Positions 1 through 2,668 of a DNA stretch of 61,274 nt are shown piece after piece (positions within the stretch are counted from its first letter, which is position 1; every line of letters starts with the position of its first letter). Origin of the DNA: Pseudomonadota bacterium (lineage in GTDB: Bacteria > Pseudomonadota > Alphaproteobacteria > Puniceispirillales > Puniceispirillaceae); contig JAQCEA010000015.1 in NCBI GenBank assembly GCA_027620495.1, positions 1-61,274 on the forward strand, in the 5' to 3' direction. The notes beneath the pieces are model-generated. The model was not told where the DNA came from. It searched no databases and was given only the letters and a program-made list of their open reading frames with translations. The position numbers were made by a program, and so were the translations under genes.

Positions 1-70
1 CGGAATAAAGATGCCGGAATAAAGATGCCGGAATAAAGATGCCGGAATAAAGATGCCGGAATAAAGATGA
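1..70 (+). repeat. 14-bp tandem repeat carrying mini-ORFs before hisG
   Basis: Five head-to-tail copies of a 14-bp unit (CGGAATAAAGATGC). The first four are identical and the last ends in A. It runs off the left window edge, so the true copy number is unknown. Each unit has a weak Shine-Dalgarno-like GGA six bases before an ATG. The first four ATGs read ATG CCG GAA TAA, a Met-Pro-Glu-stop mini-ORF whose stop lies two bases before the next ATG. The fifth ATG (67) is the first possible start of hisG. Because 14 is not a multiple of three, each ATG falls in a new frame. This layout could feed ribosomes to hisG by termination-reinitiation; that role is inferred. Confidence 0.95.
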
Positions 71-975
71 TAGTGGAACAAGAAATGGATAGTGAAAACA
101 GGCTGAAAATTGCCATACAAAAATCTGGACGGCTGGCAGATATGTCGCTGCAGCTTCTTGAAAAATGTGGGATTCAGCTGTCAAAAAGCCGTGACCAACT
201 ATTGTGCAGGTCACAAAATTTTCCGCTGGATGTGTTTTTGGTTCGCGATGATGACATCCCGGCATTTTTGGCAACGGATGTGTGCCAACTTGGGGTGTTG
301 GGGCAAAATGTGCTTCGTGAAAAACAGGCGATCGGCAATGGCAAATTTGCTGGATTAAAAGAAGAATTGCCACTTGGTTACGGGCGGTGTCGGCTATCAA
401 TCGCGGTGCCGCAGGGATTTGCCTATGATGGTATCGCCTCGCTTCAAGGCAAAACCATTGCCACTTCATACAAAGGGTTGCTTAATGCCTATCTGCAAGC
501 CAATAAGATTGACGCGGATATTGTTACCATGGAAGGCGCCGTTGAGGTGGCACCGCGGACGCATCTAGCAGATGTCATTTGTGATCTTGTATCGACTGGC
601 AATACGCTGATTTCAAATGGACTGGTGGAACAGGATGTTATTTTGCAATCAGAGGCTGTGTTGGTCAAAAACCAGATTGCCGATCCTGATATTGCAAAGC
701 TGTGTGACCAATTAATGTCACGTATCAAGGCGGTCCAGCGCGCCGCCAAAAGCCGCTATATTATGCTCAACAGTCCAATTGACAATCTGGCCGCCATCAA
801 AGCCGTGCTGCCCGGTTCACAATCACCAACGGTTATGCCATTGCAAGGACGCGATGATATGGTGGCGGTGCATGCTGTCTGCGAAGAGGGCGTGTTTTGG
901 GATACGATGGAAGATTTAAAGGCAAATGGCGCGAATTCGATTCTTGTCGTGCCAATCGAAAAGATGCTGGATTAG
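67..975 (+). CDS. hisG: ATP phosphoribosyltransferase, long form (HisG)
   Basis: First step of histidine synthesis: condenses ATP with PRPP in the cytosol. The 302-aa length and a C-terminal ACT-like regulatory domain (about residues 230-302, ending in VVPIEKML) mark the long, self-sufficient form that needs no HisZ and is usually feedback-inhibited by histidine. Visible motifs are IQKSGRL near residue 17 and the PRPP-binding stretch around residues 160-181 (EVAPR...CDLVSTGNTL). The sequence resembles enterobacterial HisG closely, whereas most alphaproteobacteria use the short form. Start: ATG 67 lies in the last repeat unit; ATG 85 (MDSENRLKIAIQ) is a plausible alternative. Ten bases separate it from hisCB. 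Confidence 0.97.
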   Translation: MIVEQEMDSENRLKIAIQKSGRLADMSLQLLEKCGIQLSKSRDQLLCRSQNFPLDVFLVRDDDIPAFLATDVCQLGVLGQNVLREKQAIGNGKFAGLKEELPLGYGRCRLSIAVPQGFAYDGIASLQGKTIATSYKGLLNAYLQANKIDADIVTMEGAVEVAPRTHLADVICDLVSTGNTLISNGLVEQDVILQSEAVLVKNQIADPDIAKLCDQLMSRIKAVQRAAKSRYIMLNSPIDNLAAIKAVLPGSQSPTVMPLQGRDDMVAVHAVCEEGVFWDTMEDLKANGANSILVVPIEKMLD

Positions 976-985
976 GGGCGGGGTA

Positions 986-2668
986 ATGGCCAAAACTGTG
1001 AAAACCGCGCCGAACAGCGCTATGATAAGCCAACGGGCCCGGCCAGAAATTCTCGCCATGGGCGGTTATGTGTCGGCGCGGTCAATTGAAAAATCAAATC
1101 GTGATACAATTTTTCTGGATGCGAATGAATGCGCCTTTGAACCGTTTATTGGCGCGCAGAATTTATCGCGCTATCCCGAGCAACAACCAACTGCCCTGCA
1201 AGAGGCCATTTGCCGATGGCTAGATGTGTCAAAACGGCATATCACCATCACCCGCGGGGCTGATGAGGCGATTGATTGCTTGGTGCGGGCATTTTGTGTG
1301 CCGGGTCAAGATAACATTGTCATTTGCCCGCCAACCTTTGCCATGTATGCGCAATCTGCAACGCTTCAAAATGCCGAGGTGCGTCAGGCAAAGCTTGATA
1401 AAACATTTGATCTAGATGTTAAACTTATCAATCAAACTACTGATAAAAATACAAAAATTATTTTTGTATGTTCACCAAATAACCCAACGGCAAATCTTAT
1501 GAACCGTGCGCGTATTTTGCGGCTATGTGCAGATTATGCCGAAACAGCCCTTGTTGTTGTTGATGAGACCTATGTTGAGTTTGCCGATAGCGAAAGTTTG
1601 ATCCCGTGTCTTGATGCGCATGCAAATTTGGTGATTTTGCGCACATTGTCTAAATCGCATGCGGCCGCTGGGTTGCGTTGCGGGGTTGCGGTCGCGCGGT
1701 CTGATGTTACCGGGCTGTTACAAAAAGTGCTGGCACCTTATCCGCTAGCCCAACCTGTTGTTGACGCGGCGCTAACCATTTTATCGGCAAAGTCACAATC
1801 TGTTCTGGCGGCAAAGCGGCGAGACATTGTGACCCGGCGCAATCAGGTGGCGGCCTCGTTTGCCGCATGCCCGGATATCGTCGAGGTGTTGCCATCTGAT
1901 GCCAATTATTTGCTGGTTCGGGTAAAAGACGCCGCGGATTTATGTGAAAAATGCCGCGCATCAGGCATTATTTTGCGCAACCAATCGCATCAGCCGGGGC
2001 TTGAAAATTCAGTGCGGGTCTCGATTGGCAGTGACGAGGATATGCAGGCTTTCCTTGCTGTGGTGAGGGGCGAGACCATATCCGCCCGCACCAATCAAAG
2101 GGTTGAAACTGTTATTCGAAAGACCAATGAAACGGCAATTTCAGTGCGGGTTAATCTGGATGCGGCCGCCCCGGTGCGGATCAATACCGGCATTGGCTTT
2201 TATGATCATATGCTAGACCAAATTGCCAAACATGGTGGGTTTTCTCTGGAAATTGAATGTGATGGCGATTTGCATATTGATCCACATCATTCGGTTGAGG
2301 ATTGTGCCATTGCGCTTGGTCAGGCCATTCGATTGGCGTTAGGTGACAAACGCGGTATTGGCCGCTATGGGTTTTTCCTGCCGATGGATGAATCACAGGT
2401 CAAGGTGGCTTTGGATTTTGGTGGACGGTTCTATCTTGATTTTAACGCTGATTTTCCAGAAAGCCATGTGGGTGATTTGCCAACTGATATGGTGCCGCAT
2501 GTGTTTTATTCACTTGCTGAAAATATGCAGGCCAATCTGCATATCGCGGTCACTGGTGAAAACACCCATCACATGGTTGAGGCTTGTTTCAAAGGATTTG
2601 GCCGGGCGTTGCGTCAAGCCATTCGCCGCGAGGGTGACGAAATGCCAAGTACAAAGGGCAGCCTATGA
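986..2668 (+). CDS. hisCB: HisC-HisB fusion: histidinol-phosphate aminotransferase / imidazoleglycerol-phosphate dehydratase
   Basis: One 560-aa reading frame holding two enzymes. Residues 1 to about 362 are a PLP-dependent class I/II aminotransferase (HisC): the CSPNNPT stretch is at 162-168 and the Schiff-base lysine lies in RTLSKSHAAAGLRCG (Lys223). Residues about 368-560 are imidazoleglycerol-phosphate dehydratase (HisB) with both metal motifs, HHSVED (434-439) and HHMVEA (528-533). No HAD phosphatase domain is present, unlike the bifunctional enterobacterial HisB. The frame is open across the joint with only a short linker, so this is a true fusion unless a sequencing error removed a stop and restart. 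ATG 986 is preferred over an upstream start that would lie inside hisG. The stop overlaps the hisH start by four bases. Confidence 0.95.
   Translation: MAKTVKTAPNSAMISQRARPEILAMGGYVSARSIEKSNRDTIFLDANECAFEPFIGAQNLSRYPEQQPTALQEAICRWLDVSKRHITITRGADEAIDCLVRAFCVPGQDNIVICPPTFAMYAQSATLQNAEVRQAKLDKTFDLDVKLINQTTDKNTKIIFVCSPNNPTANLMNRARILRLCADYAETALVVVDETYVEFADSESLIPCLDAHANLVILRTLSKSHAAAGLRCGVAVARSDVTGLLQKVLAPYPLAQPVVDAALTILSAKSQSVLAAKRRDIVTRRNQVAASFAACPDIVEVLPSDANYLLVRVKDAADLCEKCRASGIILRNQSHQPGLENSVRVSIGSDEDMQAFLAVVRGETISARTNQRVETVIRKTNETAISVRVNLDAAAPVRINTGIGFYDHMLDQIAKHGGFSLEIECDGDLHIDPHHSVEDCAIALGQAIRLALGDKRGIGRYGFFLPMDESQVKVALDFGGRFYLDFNADFPESHVGDLPTDMVPHVFYSLAENMQANLHIAVTGENTHHMVEACFKGFGRALRQAIRREGDEMPSTKGSL

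Follow-up and report, generated by a model that had tools for sequence, protein, structure and literature searches.

Is a chain of very short open reading frames that leads from one gene stop to the next gene start a translational device, or is it simply what a short tandem repeat can look like? The question is raised by the first bases of the window (the whole stretch of DNA analysed, 61,274 nucleotides), where identical 14-bp units, each a complete start-stop mini-ORF, precede hisG. In the draft genome, which comprises 48 contigs and 2,403,379 bases, the window is contig C44.

The array between hisR and hisG

The features at the start of the window are collected in Table 1.

Table 1. Features from the first base of the window to the end of hisG (window positions)
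Feature	Position	Strand	Remarks
14-bp tandem array, unit GGAATAAAGATGCC	1..66	+	4.7 perfect units; continues on contig C5
Mini-ORF ATG CCG GAA TAA (M-P-E-stop)	11..22	+	traced ORF
Mini-ORF M-P-E-stop	25..36	+	traced ORF
Mini-ORF M-P-E-stop	39..50	+	traced ORF
Mini-ORF M-P-E-stop, TAA 2 nt before ATG 67	53..64	+	traced ORF
ATG in array register, in frame with hisG	67..69	+	ORF trace; would extend HisG by MIVEQE (six residues)
GGAA, Shine-Dalgarno-like motif for ATG 85	75..78	+	weak, -3.3 kcal/mol against the assumed anti-Shine-Dalgarno sequence
hisG, ATP phosphoribosyltransferase with HisG C-terminal domain, long form	85..975	+	conserved start ATG 85

The array, a candidate VNTR, is a tandem repeat in the plain sense of head-to-tail copies of a short unit. 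TRF reports it at positions 1-69 with period 14, 4.9 copies, 100% matches and a score of 138, the top of the 38 TRF rows in the window. The ATGs of the four mini-ORFs (11, 25, 39 and 53) follow one another with a stop-to-ATG gap of 2 nt throughout, and both ATG 67 and ATG 85 open in frame with hisG. Tandem 14-bp start-stop units ahead of hisG, as described in the initial annotation, are thus confirmed by the four complete traces and by the TRF array.

The sole other match to the array in the genome is the end of contig C5, behind hisR (yerC, TrpR family). This upstream gene matches TIGR02531 with 81 bits (cut-off 42.2) and PF01371 with 87.8 bits (cut-off 27), and the TrpR-family profile match together with its place before his genes assigns it to the HisR (YerC) family. 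Read toward the break, hisR ends in TAA and is followed by 9 nt, two units GGTTTGATAATGCC, one unit GGATTAATGATGCC and a perfect unit; the C5 mini-ORFs read MPV*, MPD*, MPE* and MPE*. The first array ATG lies 18 nt past the hisR stop, all later traced gaps are 2 nt, and one unit also has a TAATG overlap. Because the end of C5 carries the matching repeat directly behind hisR, the array fills the gap between hisR and hisG, and the contig break falls inside it. Its units are diverged toward hisR and identical toward hisG. If the largest possible overlap of C5 and the window contig is assumed, the gap holds at least seven mini-ORFs, and the hisR stop lies at least 116 nt from ATG 67 and at least 134 nt from ATG 85.

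Following the array upstream, a check that the initial annotation had called for, thus raised the number of mini-ORFs from the at least four claimed to at least seven. The array had been called the leader of hisG; it does precede hisG, but it sits between two genes and is not the 5' leader of the his operon. Like a classic his leader attenuator, it places short ORFs ahead of a his gene. Unlike one, it has neither tandem His codons nor a terminator: its mini-ORFs read MPE, MPD or MPV, and no terminator-like site was found in window positions 1-300. The earlier view that it is not such an attenuator therefore holds.

The hisR-hisG junction in relatives

A HisG search matched 92 of 121 genomes. 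Loci were taken for the best 30, and the region upstream of hisG was read in 25 of these, leaving aside L032 and L033, where the match starts late, and L035-L037, where HisG has about 33% identity and is probably of the short form. Among these 25 loci (from the best 30 of the 92 matches), hisR stands directly before hisG in all 23 relatives' loci that have hisR on the hisG contig; in G000 and G001 it is not on that contig, and they fall outside the 23. The genus is represented by 16 genomes, several of them incomplete, 4 without a hisR match and 3 without a hisG match. Twelve genus loci have both genes, and in 10 of them the two overlap as ATGA (-4). The exceptions are G011, which has a plain spacer, and the present genome, in which hisR lies on C5. 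In 12 loci outside the genus, the nearest in-frame ATG lies at +3 to +29. The his operon downstream is tightly packed, with spacings of +10, -4, -4, -7 and +1 nt.

In the 10 overlap species, the first residue of HisG corresponds to the one that ATG 85 encodes here; thus ATG 85 is the conserved hisG start. The start block that follows the array, including the GGA before ATG 85, is kept in two sister species, G011 and G001, both with 93% HisG identity. The ladder pattern itself is seen in only one of the 16 genus genomes, this one. In G001, the 27 nt that precede the HisG match contain no array. The spacer of G011 is without a ladder and offers possible starts at +30 to +69, the likely ones being GTG starts 57-69 nt from the hisR stop. 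It does hold one copy of a segment resembling the stretch that leads into the first unit (TTTGGCACCAGTTTGATAA versus TTTAGCGCTGGTTTGATAA, 15/19 alike), a similarity whose score is reached in 8 of 2000 shuffles.

A different array was found in G022, from another genus of the family. There, 12-bp and 15-bp repeats lie at L022 1363-1503, between hisR and the conserved hisG start; they are in frame with hisG and would lengthen HisG. The hisR-hisG junction has thus acquired repeat arrays at least twice. HisG itself varies across genera of the family, with identities to the present HisG of 66-93% in some and, across some 230 N-terminal residues, of only about 28-36% in others, which suggests a switch between long-form and short-form HisG within the family.

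Frequency and context of ladder geometry

Is such a geometry unusual? We drew 200,000 random 14-mers, of which 64,735 contained an ATG. Placed in tandem, 44% of the ATG-containing 14-mers give a start-stop ladder with a gap of -4 to +5, and 34% give one with a mini-ORF of at most five codons. In genomes we searched for two units of ATG-N6-TRA-N2 plus a third ATG, at a unit length of 14. We found the pattern in 1 of the 16 genomes from the genus, 8 of 61 from the family, 10 of 385 from the class and 6 of 398 from the phylum, counts that include the present genome at every level and come from overlapping samples. Read backwards, it is rarer (0/16, 2/61, 3/385 and 3/398, respectively). An out-of-frame control, ATG-N5-TRA-N3, occurs in 12 of the 385 class genomes as against 10 for the ladder. 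It is not a clean control either, since 7-bp repeats account for several of its loci. We trust it more than the backwards pattern because it shares the ladder's period as well as its ATG and TRA letters. Over this control, there is no excess of ladders.

Three scans gave 20 ladder loci besides this one. Two of them, L067 and L070, bridge a gene stop and a gene start exactly; 18 do not. The last ATG opens an ORF of more than 100 aa in four of the 20 (L067, L070, L104 and L105), but L104 and L105 are not repeats (8/14 and 7/14 alike), and neither has an ORF of 100 codons within 150 nt on its upstream side. In L062, a 291-codon ORF ends 2 nt before the ladder, which leads into no ORF. In L067, a glycosyltransferase-2 gene (PF00535, 76.2 bits) ends in TGA and is followed, with 2-nt gaps, by ATGCCGAAATGA, ATGCCAAGATGA and an ATG. 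This ATG opens a 219-aa ORF with a sub-threshold match only (NTP_transf_3, 20.4 bits, cut-off 27), and a further in-frame ATG overlaps the last TGA. In L070, a glycosyltransferase-9 gene precedes a 258-aa MazG gene, and its final codons, ATGGAAAATTGA, appear a second time between the two. L070 thus illustrates how a rung can originate: the coupled junction itself is copied in tandem.

Taken together with the present locus, 3 of the 10 class ladder loci run from gene stop to gene start. Among the 14 out-of-frame loci examined, which include two taken from G369 (at least 40 matches) and the near-copies L074 and L085 from one genome, the array ends on a gene start in one, L072. The difference in gene-to-gene context between ladder and out-of-frame loci is not significant (Fisher P 0.27). 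In L072 (G146, 1501-1531), a 7-bp ATGAGGT repeat runs into the start of a 336-aa ORF that is acyltransferase-like by eye. Each copy there consists of a Shine-Dalgarno-like GAGGT and an ATG, and an upstream ORF was not seen within 100 nt.

The units of the hisR-hisG array were also compared by hand. They vary at five positions (3, 4, 6, 8 and 9), all of which leave the start codon, its in-frame stop and the 2-nt spacing intact. Random substitutions spare these elements in about 4% of sets of five and in 18% of sets of three. This pattern is a weak sign of constraint, and only a suggestive one because the units are copies of one another.

Several further arrays of related sequence were noted. 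In G318 (L066, around 1501), an array of several ATGTTTCGTTAAAG units shares the TAAAGATG joint with the hisR-hisG array and leads into no ORF. Two more ATGCCGG arrays occur in a Desulfobulbaceae MAG and an Acidimicrobiales MAG; by eye, these seem to follow closely on an ORF without leading up to a gene start.

Origin of the array and translation of hisG

Based on these results, we believe that the array is probably a minisatellite grown by slippage, that its ladder is a tolerated by-product, and that hisG is made mainly from its own conserved start. Tandem duplication through replication slippage would have expanded a 14-bp segment in the hisR-hisG gap of one species. The duplicated segment would have brought a stop, two bases and an ATG along, so that each copy became a start-stop mini-ORF. 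An array with diverged units at one end and identical units at the other would fit growth of this kind. Translation of hisG would begin mainly at ATG 85, or at the in-frame ATG 67, served by the GGA motif that follows the array. A ribosome that initiates or terminates within the array would stop 2 nt before another ATG, the final one being in the hisG frame, and this may be why the array is tolerated. HisG could arise either way, since the last array ATG is in frame and hisG also has a start of its own.

The initiation signals leave room for both starts. The draft gave no match in a 16S rRNA search for the anti-Shine-Dalgarno sequence, so we scored against an assumed one. Against this sequence, perfect units reach -3.5 kcal/mol, ATG 85 reaches -3.3 and the diverged units reach -2.6 to -3.3, compared with -4.5 kcal/mol for the ATGA starts of three relatives; the values of the perfect units and of ATG 85 lie near the 25% quantile of the background. 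As the perfect units match ATG 85 in the quality of their GGA motifs, starts upstream of ATG 85 may be used. Promoter scans found no sense-strand promoter-like site in the array; each gave one promoter-like site, both antisense to the operon and not clearly above shuffles. Terminator scans gave one terminator-like site, which lies inside hisR and is likewise not clearly above shuffles.

It is possible, though we find it doubtful, that ribosomes leaving hisR reinitiate at the first mini-ORF and pass rung by rung into hisG, with the number of units setting the HisR:HisG ratio. The coupling seen in ATGA-overlap relatives would thus survive a gap of at least 134 nt. The chain is indeed unbroken on both sides of the contig break, from 18 nt past the hisR stop and with 2-nt gaps thereafter, which places each traced stop within a few nucleotides of the next start. 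Coupling geometry is the genus rule at this junction and is common downstream in the his operon, the divergence of the units keeps the start-stop module, L067 and L070 show similar bridging, and the backwards pattern is rarer than the ladder. In the E. coli reporters described in PMC10666635, reinitiation persists at +2 nt, with cuts of 5, 20 and 70% relative to the native overlap in three gene pairs, as against cuts of 80-90% in two pairs and a complete loss in one at +38 nt. However, over seven steps, losses of this size would let through anything from roughly 0.02% to 70% of the flux, and the ladder could be nearly transparent or nearly closed. In addition, the first rung lies 18 nt from the hisR stop, and according to the same source a spacing of about 20 nt almost abolishes coupling (PMC10666635). 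The lack of enrichment over the out-of-frame control and the lack of bridging in 18 of the 20 other loci also argue against this explanation. So does the sister species G011: it already has a spacer without a ladder, so the loss of coupling may predate the array. A broader form of the idea, which we regard as unlikely, holds that a duplicated stop-start junction is a translationally transparent spacer, through which a repeat can grow without breaking coupling and in which rung number sets the output ratio. The hisR-hisG array would then be a long example, and L067 and L070 short ones. Thus, the reinitiation ladder proposed in the initial annotation had the geometry right, and reinitiation could occur, but a role is not established for a pattern that is present in one of 16 genus genomes, given in tandem by a third of random 14-mers with an ATG, and in no excess over the out-of-frame control, although commoner than the backwards pattern.

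Other explanations are less probable than these. The array might regulate through changes in copy number, RNA structure or ribosome trapping, as a phase-variable dial or a trap. Tandem repeats can change in number, and the assembly breaks within this one, as assemblies do where repeats are long or variable. Still, we think this improbable: the ladder pattern is missing from 15 of the 16 genus genomes (several of them incomplete), and the predicted accessibility around ATG 85 is flat, at 0.78-0.83 for 0 to 8 added units in one folding program. As unit number leaves this value unchanged, no folding-based dial is predicted, and we rejected an effect of copy number through RNA folding. An assembly artefact is very improbable. 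Although the draft has 48 contigs and the array sits at the ends of two of them, both ends carry the repeat in hisR-to-hisG order, which is the gene order of all 23 relatives' loci with hisR on the hisG contig, and the diverged units fit an old array. This answers in part the concern that the array was produced at the contig edge. The idea to which we give least credit is that the units are operator sites for HisR. The HisR (YerC) gene does adjoin the array, but the best match of the published proteobacterial HisR motif in the junction is 8/14, a score reached at 891 places in the window, whereas the region upstream of hisR has an 11/14 match, a score reached at 3 window places. An operator in the array was therefore rejected.

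The array can be set beside known systems. Mycobacterial interspersed repetitive units (MIRUs) are often arranged in tandem and are variable in number. They are described as short repeats at gene starts with an ORF coupled to the next gene (PMC12548453), and the array resembles them as a short repeat at a gene start that carries an ORF. However, MIRUs form an interspersed family coupled through -4 overlaps, whereas the array has a 14-bp unit, a 3-codon ORF and +2-nt gaps at a single locus; only the two contig ends match it in the genome, and its genome matches gave no sign of mobility. In termination-reinitiation coupling, as reported for iraD, a short upstream ORF can drive a gene (PMC5574718). 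The likeness is a stop near the next start and is one of geometry alone, and hisR-hisG differs in having many tandem, near-identical mini-ORFs. The two-codon minigene mg2 of axe-txe, also a very short ORF before a gene, is reported to affect the next gene, with distance and frame mattering (PMC8708949); one minigene is present there and a tandem array here. In the open-licence literature we found no report of tandem-repeat ladders of short ORFs that act by reinitiation in an operon, which is no proof of their absence from print.

If ribosomes pass the ladder, the locus would be a natural test of the number of consecutive termination-reinitiation steps open to a ribosome, and a change in repeat copies could set the ratio in which two adjacent proteins are made. 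If they do not, it shows the ease with which tandem repeats mimic a designed translational device, and it supplies the control needed when such devices are claimed for repeats.

Three minor observations concern the surrounding genes. Upstream of hisR, an inverted repeat, GTGTTTCAGCG / CGCTAAAACAC (11 nt, 91%; L003 395-424), overlaps the 11/14 motif match and is a candidate HisR operator that may serve autoregulation. By eye, neighbouring ORFs at L003 4982-6760, of which the last has a zinc-ribbon-like end, resemble a broken TnpB-type transposon gene. Finally, hisC and hisB (IGPD) share one frame at window positions 986-2668 as a HisC-HisB fusion: a 580-aa ORF (926-2668) matches the hisC profile over residues 39-381 and HisB over residues 389-580.
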